Shown here: positions 10,239 through 41,556 of the stretch, in pieces | Layout of the letters: each line of letters starts with the position of its first letter | How positions within the stretch are numbered: the first letter of the stretch is position 1 | Assembly (NCBI RefSeq): GCF_040616545.1 | Contig: NZ_CP156688.1 | Coordinates: 682,001-746,000 of the forward strand | Direction: 5' to 3' | Length of the DNA: 64,000 nt | Origin: Akkermansia muciniphila | Lineage (GTDB): Bacteria; Verrucomicrobiota; Verrucomicrobiia; Verrucomicrobiales; Akkermansiaceae | Made by a program: the position numbers and the translations under genes | The notes under the pieces: generated by a model | What the model was told of the DNA's origin: nothing | Seen by the model: only the letters and a program-made list of their open reading frames with translations | Databases searched by the model: none

Positions 10239-11072
10239 TCAGCGCATACGGCGGCGGCGCAGCAGGGCCAGCAACAGCCCGGCGGCGGAAAGGCCGGCCG
10301 CAGCAGGTTCCGGAACGGGAGCCGCCCCGGTGATATAATGAATCTTCACGTTGGCCCACGCTCCCCCATTGGTGGTAATCCAGTACTTGCCCACATTCTC
10401 AGCAGTGGCCTCCAAAGGACCGTCCGCACGGGTCAGGATATTCCCATCGGCATCCCTGACCACGTAGTCCACCGTATCAAAGCCGTTGCCGCCCGAGGAG
10501 GATGAAGCGTTCTGCCCCAGGAGTTCACGCACCACCGTCCCAAAGGCGCCCGTGGTGGTATACGGATCAATGATAGCCTGAATAGTACCCCCGTTTGCAT
10601 TGATCCAAAGGCTCGTCGTCGCAAGGCGCCCGTTCAGGCCGAAATCCCACACATACCCCTCGGACAGTCCCCCGCCCAAGGCTCCGGAATTAATCACGGA
10701 ATCAATCGCCAGGTTGCCCCAGAGCTGCGTATTGCTGGAATTCAGGGTGAAGGATTTATCCATCTCCACATTTCCCAGGATCAAGGCCCCGCCCGTGTTG
10801 TTGCTGAGGGTGCCCGTACCCTTCAGGACAAGCTGGTCAATGCCCTTGTAATTCAAGTTTCCGGCCCCGGCGGTGGATATGGAGGCATCACTGTTAATGA
10901 TGATGCTGTTTCCCGCACCAAGAGTGGTGGGAGGCACCCCGGATTCCGACCAGTTGCCCGCGTCCGTCCAGGAGGAGCCGTCACCGTTGCCCGTCCATTG
11001 ATAGGTTGCCGCCATGCTGAAACCGGATACGGCAGCCAGAGCGCAGCAGGCAATAATTAGAGTTTTCTTCAT
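10239..11072 (-). CDS. PEP-CTERM sorting-domain surface protein
   Basis: Secreted 277-residue protein: signal peptide MKKTLIIACCALAAVSGFSMA, then a Gly/Asn/Thr-rich, probably beta-stranded body (YQWTGNGDGSSWTDAGNW, as in autotransporter-like repeats). It ends with a PEP-CTERM tripartite tail, VPEPAAAGLSAAGLLLALLRRRRMR (motif, hydrophobic helix, arginine cluster). The family is processed by exosortase for export or surface attachment; no exosortase gene is in this window. Start chosen at the ATG giving the signal peptide. Its promoter region contains the predicted invertible segment at 11201-11381, in which the -35 currently points away, so expression may be phase-variable and OFF here. Confidence 0.9.
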   Translation of the reverse strand: MKKTLIIACCALAAVSGFSMAATYQWTGNGDGSSWTDAGNWSESGVPPTTLGAGNSIIINSDASISTAGAGNLNYKGIDQLVLKGTGTLSNNTGGALILGNVEMDKSFTLNSSNTQLWGNLAIDSVINSGALGGGLSEGYVWDFGLNGRLATTSLWINANGGTIQAIIDPYTTTGAFGTVVRELLGQNASSSSGGNGFDTVDYVVRDADGNILTRADGPLEATAENVGKYWITTNGGAWANVKIHYITGAAPVPEPAAAGLSAAGLLLALLRRRRMR

Positions 11073-11200
11073 GATATCAGGAATTAAAGATGGGCGCCAA
11101 CAGTTGCAAATATTGCCTCCATGCTTCACAAATCCGTTCCCGTGAGCGTTTTGCGATCAAAAATCCAGGCATGTAACCATAGCTCCGGGTTTTTCTATAT

Positions 11201-11215
11201 CGGATTGTGAATCCG
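11201..11215 (+). repeat. Inverted repeat A, left copy
   Basis: CGGATTGTGAATCCG: six-base palindromic arms around the centre GTG. Exact reverse complement of the copy at 11367-11381. Confidence 0.9.
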
Positions 11216-11366
11216 TAAAATTTCATCAATGATGTAATATATTCAACATGAAATTATTAATTTTATTTAGCCGGCATGTTTGCTTAAATCGGAAATGGCG
11301 TATGATCCATTTCCAATGGGTGAAATCATTGGAAAATCAGGAATTCATCTCTTTTTAAATTGACCC

Positions 11367-11381
11367 CGGATTCACAATCCG
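11367..11381 (-). repeat. Inverted repeat A, right copy
   Basis: Plus strand reads CGGATTCACAATCCG, centre CAC, the exact reverse complement of the left copy. Confidence 0.9.
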
Positions 11382-11530: not shown

Positions 11531-13558
11531 ATGAGAGCGTTCACCTTCCCGGCCCTTGTCCTGGCGGCCCTGACCGTCTGGACCGCCGCAGCCCAGACCC
11601 AGATATCCTCCATTACCCCTTTGCCGGGGAAAACCGCGCGGCCCCTTCCGGTCCCTCCCTACCAGTCCTTCTGCTGGTTTTCAGCGGACCGGGGCCGCTG
11701 GCCCGGAGACGGCAACCGGGTTCTGCCCTGGTTCGGCAAGACGGACCCCGGCAACCTGCTGGACAGCAAGCCGAACCCCAGCACTGCCAAGCCCGGGGAC
11801 CATGCCATGTTTGCACTGTTCCACCTGAAGGACGGGCGTTTCATGGCGGTGCTCCCCGTCGCTACTCCTGATTCTCTCGCGTGGCTGAAGCTTGATGGAA
11901 ACGGCAAATTCCTGGTGGAATACGGTACGCTGGGAACTTCCACGGTTAAGCCGCAGCCAGTGCTGGCCGTCACTGCCGTGGACAAGGATATTTACCGCGC
12001 CTGTTCCGCCGCATGGAGCAAAGCCCTCTCCCTCCCCTTCATCAAGGGAAGAACCTTCCCCCGTGAAAAAAAGGCCTACCCGGAACCGTTCAAATACCTG
12101 GGCTGGTGCAGCTGGGAGCAGTATAAAAAGAATATCTCCTCCAAACTGCTTGAACAGACGGCCAGCCAGCTGGAGGCCTCCCCCGTTCCCGTCCGGTGGA
12201 TCCTGGTGGACGACGGCTTCCAGACCCAGGAGGGCCTTAAACTGATCAGCTTCCAGACCAACAAGGGCAAGTTCCCCCAGGGATGGGCGCCACTGATGAA
12301 GCACAAGAGCCCCAAATTGAAGTGGATGGGGTTATGGCACTGCTACTACGGCCTCTGGAACGGCATCCACCCCAAACACCGGCTGGACGCCCAGACGGCC
12401 CGTGGGCTGGTCACCACCTCCAAGGGGAAAATCCTTCCCGGTGACGGTCCCGGAGGAGCCGGGGCGTTTTACGGCCCGTTCCTTCAGTCCGTCAAGGACG
12501 CCGGGTTCGACTTCGTGAAGATTGACGTGCAGGCGGAATACCTGAAGCACGCGGACGGTCTGGACAACCCGGTGCACCACAACACCAAGTGCTCGGAGGC
12601 CCTGGAGCAGGCCTGCCGGAAAATGGGGCTCAACCTGGTCAACTGCATGGCGCAGGGCACCGTCAATATCCAGAATACCCGCTACAGCGCCGTCACCCGG
12701 TGCAGTATTGACTACAAGCTGGGGGATGAAGCCATGGGCAAGTCCCACATCCTCCAGTCTTATGCCAATACGCTCTGGCTGGGGCAGACCGCGTGGCCGG
12801 ACCATGACATGTTCCACTCCACGGACCCCACCAGCGCGCGGCTCATGGCCGTCTCCAAAGCCGTTTCCGGCGGCCCGGTTTATCTTTCAGACCCCGCGGA
12901 CAAGCTGAACCCGGAACATATCATGCCCCTGGTGTGGTCTGACGGCCTGCTGCTGCGCCCGCTGGCTCCCGCCGTTCCCCTGCCGGACTCCGTCTTTCTG
13001 GACGCCATGAACGAGAACCGCCTTTACCGGGTGATCGCCCCCCTGCCCGGCCAAAGCGCCGCCGTAGTGCTGTACAACCTCAGGCACCCCTCCCCGGCGG
13101 AACCGGTCCGGGGCAGGATTTCCCTGACGGATTACAACAATGCCGCAGCCCTGTTGAACGGCAAGGCGGCGGAGGCGTATGCCAGCCTTCCCCCGGAAGG
13201 AATCGCGGCCTATTCCGCAGAAGGCGGCCGCGCCCTGACCCAGGAACAGCCGGAGCTGGACGTGGAGCTCACGGGCTTCAAGGACCGCCTGTTCATCATG
13301 GCCCCCATCGTCCGGGGCTGGGCCGTCATCGGCAGGGGTGACAAGTTCCTCTCCCCGTGCGCCCTGGCCGCCGCTCCGGAATACGGGGCGGACGCCCTGC
13401 GTTTCCGCGTGAAGGAGTCCGGCCCGGTGGTCGTCTGGCACGGGAAAAGCGCCGTCAAGGCGGGAAATACCCCTGTCAAAGACCTGGGGAACGGCTTTTA
13501 TGAATTGCAATTCCCCGTCTCCGACCGTCCGCTGGACATCACGGTGACGGCTGAATGA
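11531..13558 (+). CDS. Secreted GH36-type (Sip1/raffinose-synthase-like) alpha-galactosidase
   Basis: 675 residues with a signal peptide (MRAFTFPALVLAALTVWTAAAQ). The catalytic TIM-barrel region carries GWCSWEQYKKNIS, WILVDDGFQ, KWMGLWHCYYGLWNGI and FVKIDVQAEY, hallmarks of the Sip1/raffinose-synthase branch of GH36. Asp332 in FVKID is the likely nucleophile and Asp394 in RCSID the likely acid/base. The signal peptide points to hydrolysis of alpha-galactosides outside the cytoplasm, for example on host glycans or diet oligosaccharides. It is transcribed divergently from the PEP-CTERM gene, on the other side of invertible segment A. Exact substrate is not decidable from sequence. Confidence 0.85.
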   Translation: MRAFTFPALVLAALTVWTAAAQTQISSITPLPGKTARPLPVPPYQSFCWFSADRGRWPGDGNRVLPWFGKTDPGNLLDSKPNPSTAKPGDHAMFALFHLKDGRFMAVLPVATPDSLAWLKLDGNGKFLVEYGTLGTSTVKPQPVLAVTAVDKDIYRACSAAWSKALSLPFIKGRTFPREKKAYPEPFKYLGWCSWEQYKKNISSKLLEQTASQLEASPVPVRWILVDDGFQTQEGLKLISFQTNKGKFPQGWAPLMKHKSPKLKWMGLWHCYYGLWNGIHPKHRLDAQTARGLVTTSKGKILPGDGPGGAGAFYGPFLQSVKDAGFDFVKIDVQAEYLKHADGLDNPVHHNTKCSEALEQACRKMGLNLVNCMAQGTVNIQNTRYSAVTRCSIDYKLGDEAMGKSHILQSYANTLWLGQTAWPDHDMFHSTDPTSARLMAVSKAVSGGPVYLSDPADKLNPEHIMPLVWSDGLLLRPLAPAVPLPDSVFLDAMNENRLYRVIAPLPGQSAAVVLYNLRHPSPAEPVRGRISLTDYNNAAALLNGKAAEAYASLPPEGIAAYSAEGGRALTQEQPELDVELTGFKDRLFIMAPIVRGWAVIGRGDKFLSPCALAAAPEYGADALRFRVKESGPVVVWHGKSAVKAGNTPVKDLGNGFYELQFPVSDRPLDITVTAE

Positions 13559-22481: not shown

Positions 22482-22496
22482 CGGATTAGGAATCCG
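22482..22496 (+). repeat. Inverted repeat B, left copy
   Basis: CGGATTAGGAATCCG, centre AGG; reverse complement of the right copy except for one arm base. Confidence 0.85.
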
Positions 22497-22646
22497 TTAT
22501 TTACCGCTGAAAACACGGTGGAGCGGCAGCCCTGCAAAAATCAGGGGAAAAAGCAAGCTTTAAAAAGACCAGTCGTAGGACAATAGTCTCAATCTCAATG
22601 TATTGGAATCTATAATATACTAATCTTCAACATTTTGAGTTGAGGA

Positions 22647-22661
22647 CGGATTCCTAATTCG
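22647..22661 (-). repeat. Inverted repeat B, right copy
   Basis: Plus strand reads CGGATTCCTAATTCG, centre CCT; its reverse complement differs from the left copy at one position. Confidence 0.85.
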
Positions 22662-22675
22662 CATACTGCTAGGAT

Positions 22676-25600
22676 ATGCGTTTAAGATTACCCCTCTCTC
22701 TGAGATACGTTTTACTGGCGTGCGCCGCCCTGTTTACCACTGTGGCCTCCGCCTCCGTTTCCAACGGGGACCTGGGCAACGTCATGTATGTGGGGGACTC
22801 CGTCACCCATGGCGTCAATGGCGGTTCCTGGCGGTGGGCCATGCACAAAATTTTTGCGGATAACGGCATCAGCTATACCGAAAAAGGTATCATGACCGGC
22901 AACCATAGCGGCGGAGTGGCTGCGGGAACCTCCTACGGCGGCAGGGTTTTCCAGAATCTGCATTCCTCCGCGGCCAGCGCGCGCGCCTATGAAATAGCCG
23001 GCAGGGCGGACGGCAGCAGCTACGGGCGGTTTAACGGTTCCAACCTCAAGAACTGGCTGGGCCTGAGCACGGAAAAGACCAAGGGGGGAACCTACACGGG
23101 CCAGACCCTCACCGGGGCCAACACGCCGGATACGTTTTTCCTGCTGGCCGGGACCAACGACCTCCTTTCCGACAATAACAACAGTACGCTGCACCTGCGC
23201 CTGGACGGAGTGACCTACCTTCTGCTGAACGATATGGATTCCATGGTTTCCTCCATCCGCACTGCCAACAGCAAGGCGGACATTTTCGTGATGACCGTCC
23301 CCTGCTGGACGCAGCACGCCAACGGGAACATGGATGAAACGCACCAGGCCGTAGCCACGTACAACGAATCCCTGAAAGAATGGGGCGCCAAAAACGCCGC
23401 CAACGGAGTGAAGGTGATTGATATTAATGCAGGCATCATTGACGTGGCCAGCTCCAACCCCTTCTTCGGGGTGCATTCCATGTTCAACAATCCCACGGCG
23501 GACGGCCTGCATCCCAATGCCCAGGGAGACCTCCTGATGGCCGGCAACATGGCCAAGGGCATGGGCTACGCCGGGCGTTCCGCCGGACAGGCCAGGAAGG
23601 CCGCCCACGAGCTGGGCGTCAACTTCGGGCAGGCCCCGGCCATCACCCAGCAGACGCTGACGGCCAAAGGCTTTACCGCCAACAACGTCACCATCTCCAA
23701 CAACACGATCAACTTCAACAAGTCCGGCAGCAGCACCCTCACCTACAACTGGGGCGCCTCCCAGGGACAGTCCGGGGGGTACACGGTAGATTTCACCCTG
23801 CGCCTGGGCAACGGCGCCACGGGCGGCTGGGACACCACGAACAATTTCTCCCTGAATCTGGGCAACGGAACACTGAACGTCAATGAGGCGTACATCCAGT
23901 GGGGAAGCACCATCCTGTACTCCAAGGACATGTCCGCCAATGCGGACGCCATCCGCGTGGCCTACGTGGCGGGAGACAATGCCAACGGCCTGGGCGCGGG
24001 CTACTACATCTGGCTGGGGGACGTCCTCATCGGTGAAGCGCAGACGGCGGCGGGAGCCAGCTCCTCCGGACTCACCTTCAGTTATTCCGGCACGCTGGAC
24101 GCCATCCTCTCCAATCTGGCGCTGGACGGCTCCCTTTCCTACGCTCCCGCCACCGCCGGCATCACCGGCCCGGAAGCCCTCTACCTGGTAAACGGAGGAA
24201 AACCATCCCTCCTTAAACCGGGCATGATTGAATGGACCACGGATGCCGCCGCCACCGCCATAGCCACGGCCGGGGCCAACGCCACGTACAATGTCCGCAA
24301 CGGCACCAGCTCCAACATTGCCGTCATCACGGGAACGGGAAGCACCAAATTCATTTACGCCAACAACGGAGCCTACGGCAGCGCGGACAGCCACCAGGAC
24401 CTGTGGGTGACGCTGGGGGAAGGCATTAGCAGCAATAACGGCTGGATAGGCGGCCACACGTCGGGCGACCTGTACGGGGACATCCACCTGCGGCTGGCGG
24501 AAGGAGCCATCGGCAAATCCACGGTATTCGGCGTCGTCAACGGCGGTACCGTCCACGGGGACATTTACCTGGAATTCTCCTCCTCCACGGGAACCTATGA
24601 CACCTCCTTCACCAACGGGGAGGCGGACCGCACCTCCGTGGCGGGAGCCTATGCCACCGCCGTGGACGGAGACATCACCCTGGTGTTCAATGACGGCGTG
24701 TTCTCCCACCGCATCTTCGGCGGCCTTTACACCGGGACCCAGGTCATCTCCGGCTCCACCTCCATTTACATCAATGGCGGGACGTTCATGAATGAAATTT
24801 ATGCCGGGAACAAGACGCAGGGCACCATTTCCGGGGGAACCAGCCTGACCATTACCGGAACGGACGCCATCCTGGGGAAGGCGGACGGCGACACTTGGGC
24901 ATGGACGCTCCTGTGCGGCGGCAACAAGGCCAGCGGCACCATCAACGGAGGCACCACCATCACCCTGAAGGATATTGCCGCCACCACCGGAGACGGGTCC
25001 GAACACAAGTTTGACAAATACGCCGGCACCATCGACGGCAAGGGGGGCGGAACGGTGAACGGGGAAAAGAAGCTCGTCTTCAACCACTACGCCGCCAGCT
25101 TCCTGGGAACGCTCCAGAACTTTGACAAGGTGCAGGTCACCGGAAATTCGGACCTGGCGCTGGACCTGGCCCTGGGCGATACGGTTACCTCCCTGGCCGT
25201 GGATGAAGGCTCCGCCCTACGGTTCAACCGGGACCAGGGGGCCACGCTGGACATCACCAACAACGGCACGATCCGCACCTCGCACAACCTGACCCTCAAA
25301 TCCGCAGACACCGGAACCGGAACCTACCGGGTGGAGGGAGGAACGCTGGACCTGGCCGGGCAGGCCGTATCCGGCAGCATCTCCATCTCCGCCGGGGCGC
25401 TTGCCAACACGGCGGGACTGGGAGCCAAAAGCGTTTCCGTCTCCGGCATCACCGGAAACATCAACCTGGGGGGCCTGGACGGCAGCAAGCTGAACTCCAT
25501 CAACATGGGAGCGGGCGCCGGAACCATCTCCGGACTGGCGGGCCATGCGGACCTGTCCGGTGCGGATACCCAGTTAAGGCTTTCCGCCGCCAACATGGGC

Positions 25601-28498
25601 GCGGACGGCGCGGGAGCCATTCTGTTCAACGACCCGTCCGGTTCCAGCCTGACGCTGGGGAATCTGACCCTGACGCTGACGGCGGATGCCGTGGCCCTGC
25701 TCACCGCTCCGGGGGATTACGCCTTCCACATCACCAACGGCACGCTGCATGCGGATACCAACCACATTACGCTGAGCGAATACAACGGCATGGCGTGGGA
25801 CATCACCCGGACAGAAGGCGGCCAGGTGATTATCTCCTTCGGCCAGCTGGACGCCCTGATTATTGACAAAGGAGGCATCAAGACCATCACCTCCTCCGAC
25901 ACGCTGGGGGCAACGCCCAGCGTCACCAACAACGGAACGCTGAATATCAACCTGTCCGGGGCAACCGCACCGGAAGACAAGAAGACCACCCTCCGTTACC
26001 TGGCGGGAACGGAATCGGATGCCATGGTGAATACCGGGACGGACAGCAGCGTGGTTATCACGCTGCTGAATGAGACCTCCGCAGACCCGGACAAACCCGG
26101 CAATACCGCTTACGCAGGCTCCATTGAAGGGGCGGCACAACTTGTCAAGGACGGTGGCCAGAGGCTGACCATTGACGGCCGGGTCACCGCTGCCGCGCTG
26201 GACGTGCAGGCCGGGGAGCTGGTGCTGCAAAACCGGACGCAAAGCTCCATCATTTCCGGCGCGCTGAATGTGGAACAGGATGCCGCGCTGACCCTGAATT
26301 CCGCCTCCCTGGCCGCTACGGACCTGACGGGCTCCGGAACCGTCAACCTGAACGGGGGGGCCCTGCTCACCATCACCAGGGACACGCTTTCAGACCTGAT
26401 GCTTAACGCTGCCATCACCGGCACGGGAACCTTGAAGCTGGATAACTGCAACCTGATTCTGGGCGCGGACAGCAACCTGGGAGAAGACGTACTGCTCCAT
26501 CTGGGCGGCGGCAGCCTGCGCCTGCGGGACGGCTCCACGATTGCCCTGGAAGGGCTCCACCAGGACCGGGAGGGCGGCGCGCTCCACCTGGGGGCGGACG
26601 GCCATCTGGAACTGGCCTCCGGCGACGGCAAAACCTACTCCTTCAAGGGGGACATCACCGGCACAGGCTCCATCACCCACCGCGGGGAAGGCACGCAGAT
26701 CATCCTCTCCTCCGGGAACGGCCATGTGGACGTCAGCCATACGCAGGCGGGAGGCCACCTGGTCCTGGGAGACAGCGGCCTGGCCGCTGGCGGCTCCATG
26801 GCCTACCGGGACATCTCCCTGGGCAGCAATACCCGTGACGCCGCCAATCCGGACGTCACGGCGGACCTTTCCCTGCTGAACGACACCACGGCCAATACGC
26901 TTTCCGTCGCCTCCAACGGCAAGCTGTACCTGGGCGGCAATCCCAACCAGAGGGCCGTGCAGCTGGTGCTGACCGGCAATAACGGCGGCGTGGCGGCGGA
27001 CCTGGCTTCCGGCTCCACCCTGGATATTACCGTGAATACGGAAACGCTGGCCCGCACGGCGGACAACGCCTGGGCCTCCGTGAAGGCGGAAAACGGCTCC
27101 ATCCGCATCACCGGGGCGGAACCGTCCATCAATGTCAACATTTACGGCCTCGGCACCGCCGGGGACTGGGCCATTCTGCCGGAATTCACCGTCAACGCCC
27201 TTTATGCGGAAAACGGCCTGGTCACGGCTGACGGGGATACCTGGACCGCGGACATGGTGAATCTGACTTATGCGGGCTTCGCCAACCTGGTTTACGGTAT
27301 TGACAAGCTGGTCTCCGGCGACGGCAAGCTGTTCCAGGTCCACTTCACCAAACTGGGGGACAGCCCGCTGAAAGGCTACGCCTCCACGGACAACCAGAAA
27401 GCCGCGGCGGCCAGCCTGTGGGCCGTTACCTCCTCCCCGGAAAACATCACCCCGGCCATGCTGGAATTCCTGAACGCCGTGGGAACGGCCCAGGCCCTGG
27501 GAGACGCCGGCACCATCCAATCCGCCCTTTCCTCTTATGCGGGGAGCGGCGTGACCGCCCTGCACTCCGCCCAGAAGGGAGCCCTGAAGGACCAGGTGCT
27601 GCACCTGCGCAACCGTCTCACCCAGATGGGAGCCTCCACACAGTACATCAATGACGACCTGCCCCGCTTCAACGCCTGGATTGAAGGGGAAGGCGGCTAC
27701 CGCAAGCGGGACGACCGCACGGACGAATCAGGCTACAAGCTCAACACCTGGGGCGGCACCTTCGGCTTTGACGTCACGTGCAGCGACAGCTTCGTGTGGG
27801 GCGCGGCCTTCTCCGCCAGCTACGGCGACCTGGACGCCTACATGGCGAACGGCGATCTGGACTCCTATTACGGCAACCTGTTCTTCCGCATTCAGTCCGG
27901 CCGCTGGGCCCACAACGTCATTCTCACCTACGGGTGGAATGATGCCTCCCTGGACCGCACGGCGGGCGTTCCCGGCGCCATGTACACCATGCACGGCAGC
28001 ACCAGCGGCAGCAGCTACGGCGTGTTTTATGAAGGCACCTATGACCTGTACCTGAACGAAAACAAGACCTCCGTGTTCCAGCCCCTGGCAAACGCCTCCG
28101 TCTACAGGAGCCGCATGGACGGCTTTACGGAATCCGGCGGCCTGGGCATGAGCGTGGACGACATGGAATCCACCTACGGCACCGTGGGGCTGGGCGGCAG
28201 GCTGCGGGGGGAACTCTCCAGCAACCTGGCGGGCCGCGCCTGCATGGGCGAACTGCGGGCACAGGTGGTTCAGAACCTGGGCGACCGGAAGGCGGCGGCT
28301 GCGCTGACGCCCGTAGGCGCGCCGGGAGCGGGTTTCCGCGTGAACGGCTCCCGGGAAGAAGCCACCGGCTTACAAGTGGGCGCGGGGCTCACCATTCCGG
28401 TGGGTTACACAAGCTCCGTCTTTGCGGACGTTAATGCGGACTTCCGCAGCCGGGCCAGCAGCGTCAACGGCAGCATCGGCTACCGGATGACGTTCTGA
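22676..28498 (+). CDS. Autotransporter with N-terminal SGNH/GDSL esterase domain
   Basis: 1940-residue surface protein. After a signal peptide ending near VASA (about residue 26) comes an SGNH hydrolase: GDS at 40-42 (Ser42 nucleophile), GTND at 159-162, and DGLHP at 276-280 supplying Asp276 and His279. A lectin-like segment and a long Gly/Ser/Thr/Asn-rich beta-helix passenger follow. The C-terminal 280 residues (from about WIEGEGGYRKRDD) form an autotransporter beta-barrel ending in ...GYRMTF with terminal Phe. This predicts an outer-membrane-anchored esterase, possibly removing acyl groups from mucin or other glycans (inference). The start ATG is only 14 bases from the right repeat of segment B, so expression is probably phase-variable. 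Confidence 0.92.
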   Translation: MRLRLPLSLRYVLLACAALFTTVASASVSNGDLGNVMYVGDSVTHGVNGGSWRWAMHKIFADNGISYTEKGIMTGNHSGGVAAGTSYGGRVFQNLHSSAASARAYEIAGRADGSSYGRFNGSNLKNWLGLSTEKTKGGTYTGQTLTGANTPDTFFLLAGTNDLLSDNNNSTLHLRLDGVTYLLLNDMDSMVSSIRTANSKADIFVMTVPCWTQHANGNMDETHQAVATYNESLKEWGAKNAANGVKVIDINAGIIDVASSNPFFGVHSMFNNPTADGLHPNAQGDLLMAGNMAKGMGYAGRSAGQARKAAHELGVNFGQAPAITQQTLTAKGFTANNVTISNNTINFNKSGSSTLTYNWGASQGQSGGYTVDFTLRLGNGATGGWDTTNNFSLNLGNGTLNVNEAYIQWGSTILYSKDMSANADAIRVAYVAGDNANGLGAGYYIWLGDVLIGEAQTAAGASSSGLTFSYSGTLDAILSNLALDGSLSYAPATAGITGPEALYLVNGGKPSLLKPGMIEWTTDAAATAIATAGANATYNVRNGTSSNIAVITGTGSTKFIYANNGAYGSADSHQDLWVTLGEGISSNNGWIGGHTSGDLYGDIHLRLAEGAIGKSTVFGVVNGGTVHGDIYLEFSSSTGTYDTSFTNGEADRTSVAGAYATAVDGDITLVFNDGVFSHRIFGGLYTGTQVISGSTSIYINGGTFMNEIYAGNKTQGTISGGTSLTITGTDAILGKADGDTWAWTLLCGGNKASGTINGGTTITLKDIAATTGDGSEHKFDKYAGTIDGKGGGTVNGEKKLVFNHYAASFLGTLQNFDKVQVTGNSDLALDLALGDTVTSLAVDEGSALRFNRDQGATLDITNNGTIRTSHNLTLKSADTGTGTYRVEGGTLDLAGQAVSGSISISAGALANTAGLGAKSVSVSGITGNINLGGLDGSKLNSINMGAGAGTISGLAGHADLSGADTQLRLSAANMGADGAGAILFNDPSGSSLTLGNLTLTLTADAVALLTAPGDYAFHITNGTLHADTNHITLSEYNGMAWDITRTEGGQVIISFGQLDALIIDKGGIKTITSSDTLGATPSVTNNGTLNINLSGATAPEDKKTTLRYLAGTESDAMVNTGTDSSVVITLLNETSADPDKPGNTAYAGSIEGAAQLVKDGGQRLTIDGRVTAAALDVQAGELVLQNRTQSSIISGALNVEQDAALTLNSASLAATDLTGSGTVNLNGGALLTITRDTLSDLMLNAAITGTGTLKLDNCNLILGADSNLGEDVLLHLGGGSLRLRDGSTIALEGLHQDREGGALHLGADGHLELASGDGKTYSFKGDITGTGSITHRGEGTQIILSSGNGHVDVSHTQAGGHLVLGDSGLAAGGSMAYRDISLGSNTRDAANPDVTADLSLLNDTTANTLSVASNGKLYLGGNPNQRAVQLVLTGNNGGVAADLASGSTLDITVNTETLARTADNAWASVKAENGSIRITGAEPSINVNIYGLGTAGDWAILPEFTVNALYAENGLVTADGDTWTADMVNLTYAGFANLVYGIDKLVSGDGKLFQVHFTKLGDSPLKGYASTDNQKAAAASLWAVTSSPENITPAMLEFLNAVGTAQALGDAGTIQSALSSYAGSGVTALHSAQKGALKDQVLHLRNRLTQMGASTQYINDDLPRFNAWIEGEGGYRKRDDRTDESGYKLNTWGGTFGFDVTCSDSFVWGAAFSASYGDLDAYMANGDLDSYYGNLFFRIQSGRWAHNVILTYGWNDASLDRTAGVPGAMYTMHGSTSGSSYGVFYEGTYDLYLNENKTSVFQPLANASVYRSRMDGFTESGGLGMSVDDMESTYGTVGLGGRLRGELSSNLAGRACMGELRAQVVQNLGDRKAAAALTPVGAPGAGFRVNGSREEATGLQVGAGLTIPVGYTSSVFADVNADFRSRASSVNGSIGYRMTF

Positions 28499-40477: not shown

Positions 40478-41272
40478 TTACGCGCGCCTGCGGCGCATCA
40501 GCAGAGCGCCCAGGCCCAGCAGGCCGAGACTGGCCGTGGCCGGCTCCGGAACGGAGGCCAGCGCCAGGGTATTGATGTTGCCGGTACCCCCCTGGGACTT
40601 GATATTAAGCTGGGTGCCGTCCTCCGCCACGTCAAACGTGTAAGTAATCAGCATCCAGTCCCCGGTATGCGTGCTGCCCGTGACGGTTGTACCGTTCAGG
40701 GTGGCGCCGGAACCGGTGGAATAATCATCCAGACTGGCGGAAATGTTGGAGATGCCGCTGCCGTCAATGCTGAAGGAAGAGGTATTGCCCGTACCGTAGT
40801 TGTTTCCGCGTCCCACCAGCATGGTGAGCGTGTAGGTGCCGGAGGACAGATTGTTCAGGGACATCGTGAAGTTGCCATTCGCGGAGCCGCTGGTATTGAC
40901 CGCTCCGCCCATGGGATTCCCCGTGGTCATATCCTGGCCGAAAACGTCGTAAAACTTGTTGTCCTGGCCCAGGGCTGAGCCTTTGGCGGTGGAATCGGTC
41001 ATGACACCGGGTCCGCCGCAGCAGAGCCCTCCGGTCGTCAGGGTAATGCCGGTTCCGTCCCCCCCGGTAGTGACCAAAGTGCCGGAAGTATAGGAGTTGC
41101 TCTGTCCGGTGGAAATTTTGTTCACTTTCTGTCCGGACTCTCCAAGATACGTGCCATCCACAACGGCAGTGCCATTGCCTGAATTGATCCCGAAGGAGAT
41201 CAGAACCGTAGAGGCTTCAGCCGCCACGGCCGCCGCAACCATGGTTGCCAGAATGAATAATGTTTTCTTCAT
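40478..41272 (-). CDS. PEP-CTERM sorting-domain surface protein
   Basis: 264 residues from MKKTLFILATMVAAAVAAEA, a signal peptide. The body resembles a beta-sandwich (VLISFGINSGNGTAVVDGTYLG, GNFTMSLNNLSSGTYTLTMLVGRGNN, WMLITYTFDVAEDGTQLNIKS). It ends with VPEPATASLGLLGLGALLMRRRRA, a complete PEP-CTERM anchor. An upstream frame start at 41329 would lose the signal peptide. It is first of three minus-strand genes (then sulfatase, Pmp-like protein), and its 5' region ends in predicted invertible segment C. Confidence 0.9.
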   Translation of the reverse strand: MKKTLFILATMVAAAVAAEASTVLISFGINSGNGTAVVDGTYLGESGQKVNKISTGQSNSYTSGTLVTTGGDGTGITLTTGGLCCGGPGVMTDSTAKGSALGQDNKFYDVFGQDMTTGNPMGGAVNTSGSANGNFTMSLNNLSSGTYTLTMLVGRGNNYGTGNTSSFSIDGSGISNISASLDDYSTGSGATLNGTTVTGSTHTGDWMLITYTFDVAEDGTQLNIKSQGGTGNINTLALASVPEPATASLGLLGLGALLMRRRRA

Positions 41273-41333
41273 GGTGTCTATGGGATATGTGGTTGGAAAT
41301 GATGAAACGCCACTTCCATTCCGCGACAAATAA

Positions 41334-41348
41334 CGAATTTAGAATCCG
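41334..41348 (+). repeat. Inverted repeat C, left copy
   Basis: CGAATTTAGAATCCG, centre TAG; exact reverse complement of the right copy. Confidence 0.88.
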
Positions 41349-41541
41349 TTATGTATGTTAGAAGAAAAATCTAGGAAATGTGTTATATATTTCATTGAAA
41401 ATGAGTCAGTTTTGTTTTTCGCGCCTTGAAAGGCAAGTCTTTGCCTGAGAGATTATCTAGCCCCTCAATCAATGAGCTATTTGATTAAGGCATTCATACT
41501 AATGAAATAATAATCGGAGCTCTGGTCTTTTTTGTTGACCC

Positions 41542-41556
41542 CGGATTCTAAATTCG
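41542..41556 (-). repeat. Inverted repeat C, right copy
   Basis: Plus strand CGGATTCTAAATTCG, centre CTA, exact reverse complement of the left copy. Confidence 0.88.

Follow-up and report, generated by a model that had tools for sequence, protein, structure and literature searches.

The capsule promoters of Bacteroides fragilis are numerous small invertible promoters on which a single recombinase acts in trans; that enzyme, Mpi, is a serine recombinase, and each promoter is carried inside its segment. E. coli fimS, in which tyrosine recombinases act on short inverted repeats to turn a surface structure ON or OFF, is a single locus with the whole promoter inside the segment and with FimB and FimE encoded beside it. 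In the circular intermediates of insertion sequences such as IS2 and IS21, recombination joins a -35 and a -10 from different ends of the element at promoter spacing, in the course of transposon circularisation rather than of a reversible chromosomal inversion. The locus considered here (locus A), a 181-bp segment bounded by inverted repeats upstream of a PEP-CTERM-like gene in Akkermansia muciniphila, is very probably a site-specific DNA-inversion switch with a split promoter, for which an orphan tyrosine recombinase, L021, would be the probable flipper in trans. It would resemble the Mpi system in its many small promoters and single trans-acting enzyme, fimS in its tyrosine recombinase, short repeats and surface target, and the IS junctions in the way in which a promoter is put together; it would differ from the first in the class of enzyme, from the second in the number of loci and in having its recombinase elsewhere, from both in keeping part of the promoter outside the segment, and from the third in its reversibility.

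Because its arm motif is the published repeat of Akkermansia invertons, CGGATT..AATCCG, the kind of element to which locus A belongs is already known. The motif is credited to Jiang et al., 2019 in a study (PMC13343947) in which the cps1 inverton was found to flip and to track capsule by PCR digestion, qPCR and density gradients, and in whose main text the word 'recombinase' occurs 0 times. Another study (PMC11892184) places 32 A. muciniphila invertons in its group 138, near which PEP-CTERM genes are enriched, and gives one MucT inverton at 2092093-2092283; the Akkermansia promoter motif missed its p<0.001 promoter cutoff, and the available part of its text connects group 138 with no invertase. 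In G005, the genome taken for MucT, arms were not found at 2092093-2092283, and a pair spanning 190 bp lies about 2 kb further on. Locus A is like these published invertons in its repeat, in its genus and in being a short segment of the sort found near PEP-CTERM, autotransporter and capsule genes, but the accounts, as far as their available text goes, include no split promoter, complementary three-base centre or recombinase. Neither a split layout nor an address (the three-base centre described below) nor a recombinase for Akkermansia invertons was found among the literature listed, in which Jiang et al. is represented by the papers that cite it. Measured against the available parts of these sources, what is new here is the split-promoter layout of the family, an address that changes on both arms together and a recombinase candidate; the inverton family itself is known. 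A -10 that lies outside the segment would explain the weak promoter-motif result of a search confined to segments (PMC11892184).

Locus A and its divided promoter

The window, that is, the whole 64-kb stretch of DNA analysed, comprises positions 682001-746000 of the genome under study (G000; 3,055,113 bp, one contig) and holds three segments of this sort, A, B and C. The initial annotation had read segment A as an invertible promoter that is OFF for a PEP-CTERM gene, without relating it to a known family. Its parts and neighbours, in window coordinates, are:

10239-11072 (-): target gene, 277 aa, with the PEP-CTERM-like C terminus VPEPAAAGLSAAGLLLALLRRRRMR
11194-11199 (-): TATAGA, the -10 hexamer, 1 bp beyond the left arm and directed toward the PEP-CTERM-like gene
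11201-11215 (+): left arm, CGGATTGTGAATCCG, that is CGGATT-GTG-AATCCG, address GTG
11216-11366: putatively invertible interior, 151 bp, between the arms
11360-11365 (+): TTGACC, the -35 hexamer, within the segment and 1 bp short of the right arm, directed away from the PEP-CTERM-like gene
11367-11381 (-): right arm, which is the left arm in exact reverse complement; + strand CGGATT-CAC-AATCCG
11531-13558 (+): gene on the other side, 675 aa, Raffinose_syn/Sip1 (PF05691)

The repeats that had been described, exact over 15 bp and bounding 181 bp, are present, as are both hexamers in the places and orientations claimed for them, TTGACC one base inside the right repeat and TATAGA beyond the left repeat and directed toward the PEP-CTERM-like gene; TATAGA agrees with the -10 consensus in four of six positions. 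The assertion that ideal 17-bp spacing arises only after inversion also holds: the arm plus one base on either side gives 1 + 15 + 1 = 17, and in the present orientation there is no good -10 toward the 675-aa gene at 16-18 bp, the best hexamer there, TCTTCA, being poor. Nor, as had been stated, do direct repeats flank 11201-11381, and the target-site duplication of a MITE or transposon is absent. The target gene has no Pfam match at E 1e-3, and its PEP-CTERM-like label comes from a C-terminal motif that we take, by eye, to be of that type. The initial annotation does not mention that the arms are near-palindromic in their own right, of the form CGGATT-NNN-AATCCG; the three bases at the centre are free to vary and are here called the address (GTG/CAC at locus A).

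In the mechanism that we propose, a tyrosine recombinase would pair the two arms and exchange strands within the central bases, TTNNNAA being the presumed overlap, of which the three N would have to match, and recombination would turn over the interior between the arms. The interior would contribute the -35, TTGACC, alone, with the -10, TATAGA, fixed before the PEP-CTERM-like gene; in the sequenced orientation the two halves would lie apart (OFF), and inversion would join them, with the arm and its two neighbouring bases as the spacer, into a promoter from which the gene would be transcribed (ON). About 38 loci with shared arms, mostly of the same promoter layout, would be operated in this way, probably in trans by L021. 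With a recombination site serving as the spacer of a split promoter, ON and OFF should be readable from an assembly. An invertible split promoter, OFF for the PEP-CTERM-like gene, is still the best reading of the locus, on the strength of the family layout, of inverted interiors elsewhere and of the published repeat.

The repeat family, its addresses and inverted interiors

With up to three mismatches allowed, the arm is matched 11 times in the window, far more often than by chance (100 shuffles average 2.46 matches and never exceed 8), and genome-wide the pattern CGRATTNNNAATCCG occurs 81 times forward and 79 times reverse, with 0/0 for the reversed control pattern. The window and 38 stretches around listed genome sites yield 38 pairs in inverted orientation, together with 10 solo sites; locus A, whose arms are the published motif in inverted orientation, is one of the pairs. 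Complementary centres are found in 38 of the 43 neighbouring site pairs, where the address had played no part in the pairing and chance would supply a match in 1 of 64 for each.

The promoter elements of these pairs are placed asymmetrically. TTGA[CG] adjoins exactly one arm in 31 of the 38 (1 bp off in 28, 2 bp in 3) and both arms in none, and 23 of these 31 loci have 'TA' starting at the second exterior base of a single end, while no locus has it at both. By comparison, TA is found in 0-7 of the 31 at 25 other offsets tested, and its background frequency further outside is 5.3% (85/1596); the full TANNNT is less common, being present in 8 of the 31 at the expected offset as against 0-3 at other offsets. 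The common layout of the family is, on this evidence, a predicted -35 inside, the arm as spacer and a predicted -10 outside one end. Because the arm-adjacent -35 is inside but the TA of the -10 outside in 23 of the 31 loci, locus A included, the family departs from the textbook invertible promoter, in which both elements lie within the segment. The misfits are seven of the 38 pairs, which have no -35 beside an arm, and eight of the 31, segment B among them, which have no TA at the expected place. By the TA rule nine loci are ON and 14 OFF among the 23 that can be called, and locus A belongs to the OFF group. A PEP-CTERM-like ending, recognised by eye, is present in 11 of the 23 TA-side products, and others resemble secreted or autotransporter-like proteins, or glycosyltransferases.

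The other two segments of the window are composed as follows:

22482-22661: segment B, address AGG/CCT, with -35 TTGAGG at 22640-22645
22662-22667: possible -10 of segment B, CATACT, at 16-bp spacing, facing a 1940-aa ORF at 22676-28498
41334-41556: segment C, address TAG/CTA, with -35 TTGACC at 41535-41540 facing right
41327-41332 (-): -10-like TATTTG of segment C, beyond the left arm and ahead of a PEP-CTERM-like gene at 40478-41272 (-)

Segment B is probably ON for the 1940-aa ORF, though it has no TA in the usual position two bases outside an arm, and segment C is, by its predicted hexamers, OFF in the present orientation.

Some members of the family are unusual in other ways. L039 (G000:C1:242799-244042) and L057 (1711796-1712991) span about 1.2 kb, the other 36 pairs spanning 164-359 bp; they have no usual -35 at an arm, their interiors are 92% identical over 907 bp and open frames read out from the arms, and they are possibly switches that exchange coding ends instead of promoters. 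At L059 (G000:C1:1915159-1915489) and L061 (2015901-2016231) the interiors are 97% identical over all 301 bp and the address is the same, with unmatched flanks; it is the cassette that seems to have changed place, perhaps through exchange between sites that share an address. The 10 solo sites in G000:C1, for example those at 141975 and 1036312, have no partner arm; CGGATTTTCAATCCG, the solo site at 141975, is solo in several other genomes as well, and the other solo sites may be scars of segment deletion.

Loci were compared by their matching flanks with those of the same-species genome G009 and of G004, G005, G006 and G010, in stretches chosen for holding sites among the sites listed per genome; a few of the flank rows near 75% identity may be paralogues. 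The 43 comparisons cover 26 of the 38 loci (listed sites), and the interior has the same orientation in 25, is inverted in 7 and finds no match in 11; inverted interiors were thus seen in 7 of the 32 comparisons in which the interior is readable, representing five loci. Within the species (listed sites) the corresponding numbers are 14 same, 2 inverted and 3 without match, and in the two inversions, at 807006 and 1113226, the interiors are 98% and 99% identical, turned over. In G000 itself, the paralogues at 1998618 and 2592966 have flanks that are 96% and 92% identical and interiors that are 95% identical and opposite. These five loci and the paralogue pair, along with the published cps1 member (PMC13343947), show that other members of the family invert. 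Three draft contigs begin exactly at an arm (G009:C9:1-15, G009:C15:1-15 and G044:C50:1-15), as would be expected if the assembler had met both orientations; the last is the orthologue of locus A, where the contig starts at the right arm, with address ATC, and leaves the orientation unreadable.

At locus A, both orientations had been proposed as the thing to look for in other Akkermansia genomes, and the search returned OFF alone, in all four genomes in which the locus is readable (G000, G009, G004 and G010). In G009 the arms are intact with an interior merely 86% identical; in G005, G006 and G007 the matching stretch is 43-45 bases of the right flank only, and G008 has lost the target gene and almost the whole element. 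Because the orientation is OFF in four of four, flipping at locus A itself is something that we infer.

The addresses in the same comparisons (listed sites) are complementary in all 38 rows with two arms, the other five having one arm (four) or three (one), and wherever the address has changed it is altered on both arms together (16 of 16 rows, 11 loci, locus A included). Locus A carries GTG/CAC in G000 as against GCT/AGC in G004 and G010, segment B AGG/CCT as against AAG/CTT in G009, and the locus at 2735368 CGT/ACG as against CGC/GCG in G009, a change of one base within a segment that is 96% identical; this last co-change, in the aligned sequences, shows how fine the match between arms is. 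Co-change of the arms is expected if the centre is the overlap of the crossover. The 38 loci use 21 of the 32 possible address classes, and no avoidance of shared addresses was found, with 30 same-address pairs among the 703 locus pairs against 22 expected with equal classes; because such pairs are not avoided, insulation by address is so far without statistical support. A three-base address would offer a simple rule for the number of switches that one enzyme can serve without scrambling the chromosome.

A candidate recombinase

The recombinase matches in G000 are four to Phage_integrase and one to resolvase, comprising a XerD-like and a XerC-like protein, an integrase among phage-like genes (L020), the tyrosine recombinase L021 and an Mpi-family serine recombinase. 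The fourth of these is encoded as follows:

G000:C1:2196297-2197385: L021, orphan tyrosine recombinase, 363 aa, beside a gene taken to be that of arginine decarboxylase

L021 has a Phage_integrase domain (PF00589, 39 bits), and R206, K233, D293, R296, H319 and Y329 are invariant in 21 aligned sequences. We take R206, K233, R296, H319 and Y329 to be the catalytic R-K-R-H-Y, which together with the domain marks a tyrosine recombinase; the usual H of HxxR is replaced by the invariant D. A structure model (mean pLDDT 85.7, pTM 0.66) has Tn1549 and lambda integrases as its best PDB matches.

Across 152 genomes the sites are distributed very unevenly: 12 genomes have 36-88, G002, G142, G099 and G057 have 11-22, and the rest 0-8. 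Among the matches listed, orthologues at least 90% identical to L021 occur in 11 of the 152, every one with 36 or more sites, and the other matches listed are at most 49% identical. The 11 are thus all but one of the 12 genomes with at least 36 sites; the twelfth, G045, has 88 sites and no L021 orthologue among the matches listed, which counts against a one-enzyme rule. Arginine decarboxylase is the neighbour of all 11 orthologues and also of five named loci, among them one from A. muciniphila CSUN-56 AmIII. The orthologue in G005 lies at C1:2006220-2007302. Because the 11 genomes form one clade (100/100), the co-occurrence of L021 and sites amounts to one evolutionary event and not to independent ones.

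Relatives of L021 in other Akkermansia genomes, here called cousins and 38-46% identical to it at the loci examined, often have the same kind of switch directly upstream, with a span of 160-202 bp, a three-base centre and half-sites CGGATT, CGCATT, CCCATT, CGAATT or AGGATT. A switch (arms within 700 bp) lies beside 8 of 17 recombinase loci that were not selected by sites, seven of the 17 having been hand-picked among the matches listed from genomes with at least 3 sites, a mild bias; the other 9 have none, and for one of them the contig offers just 169 bases upstream. None of 420 mononucleotide shuffles used as controls gave a hit, and the 4 hits among 174 tiles of the window all fall on the known segments A, B and C. 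In the reverse test, 7 of 15 site loci from six low-count genomes, among those listed, are within about 300 bases of a cousin match, and the eight without a cousin are five occurrences of the recurring solo CGGATTTTCAATCCG (on either strand), two other solos and one pair at a contig start. None of three regions examined in G002 (22 sites) is beside a recombinase, and none of the 11 L021 orthologues has adjacent arms. At L203, L205, L209 and L221 the cousin switches have TTGAC within the segment and, beyond the far arm, CTATAC or CTATGC.

We infer from these loci that L021 descends from a recombinase-plus-switch module and now acts in trans. G000 has a single member of this recombinase family, among the matches listed, and 38 pairs, which suggests one enzyme for many unlinked sites. 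L021 is a strong candidate for the enzyme that flips the family, and we think it probable that it does so; that enzyme is likely to be a single, previously unlinked recombinase, the predicted targets of which are often surface-protein genes. With a candidate in hand, the whole inverton set becomes testable through the removal of one gene. We lean, if only slightly, toward a fuller scenario in which an orphan recombinase, derived from self-contained modules that survive in other Akkermansia, runs the roughly 38 switches, most with split promoters, through shared half-sites (CGGATT/AATCCG) and addresses in the crossover that insulate most loci, hold the near-palindromic arms back from deletion pairing and drift on both arms together, a match between the two being imposed by recombination or selection.

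The cousin switches at L230, L231 and L222 (G057 and G061) have the half-sites CGAATT, AGGATT and CGCATT with the same type of three-base centre, and would be natural material for a study of recombinase site specificity. In G045 the sites, among those listed, all have the address TTG/CAA, and the nine regions examined are copies of one element (for example L192-L200) of about 195 bp, with a -35 at one arm (TTGACAG in several copies) and similar flanks; the element seems to be inverton-like and to have multiplied like a MITE. G045 has a cousin recombinase of its own, beside arms of a different address, and none of the nine element regions is beside a recombinase.

Other readings of the segments and of the enzyme

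The uniform OFF orientation in the four readable genomes, and the loss from G008 of the gene and almost all of the element, could mean that the switch at locus A is a fossil, or is locked, with intact arms but with flipping at an end or OFF fixed. We judge this improbable: the arms are exact, they have stayed intact in G009 despite an interior identity of 86%, and in G004/G010 the address differs from that of this species on both arms at once, a co-change that requires recombination to go on or to be selected for. Very unlikely, in our view, is that the segments are MITEs with TTGAC in their terminal repeats by accident and that the differences in orientation reflect independent insertions. 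Such elements would account for the near-identical interiors at 1915159 and 2015901 between non-homologous flanks, for the 19 locus pairs, of 703 within the genome, whose interiors share some similarity (19 of the 38 loci are involved) and for the 88 sites of G045 with their one listed address, but not readily for the missing target-site duplication at locus A, for inverted interiors that sit between matching flanks (twice within the species), for central bases that co-change on both arms, or for a -10 that is outside one end only and in register with the -35. It is scarcely credible that the arms are the paired operators of a DNA-looping dimeric regulator with no inversion at all; each arm has the near-perfect palindromy of dimer operators, but a regulator has no need of complementary, co-changing variable centres, and the interiors are seen inverted between genomes and between paralogues.

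If the invertons flip, as we favour, another enzyme than the orphan might be responsible, be it XerC/XerD, the Mpi-type serine recombinase or some other. This is unlikely. In its favour, XerC-like, XerD-like, prophage-type and Mpi-type proteins are all encoded in the genome, and Bacteroides Mpi is a known trans-acting promoter inverter. XerC and XerD, against this, are housekeeping recombinases, and it is the cousins of the orphan that often adjoin the switch. The Mpi-type protein, attractive by name (an NCBIfam equivalog), was rejected on its distribution: among the 152 genomes 77% matches occur in G045, G037 and G028 alone, of which G037 and G028 have 1 site each, and in the remaining high-count genomes there are matches in G044 and G046 alone, at 27-28%. 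The prophage-type integrase L020 has orthologues of at least 90% identity in G004, G008 and G012 only, and no match to an IS110/Piv inverter was found in the genome. A phage origin was likewise set aside; one viral contig matched TTGACNNCGGATTNNNAATCCG, and the match is taken as chance because it is a lone site with no partner in 14,893 bases. The Mpi-family gene itself (L022, G000:C1:2343210-2343827) precedes an open frame that resembles, by eye, part of a restriction-modification protein.
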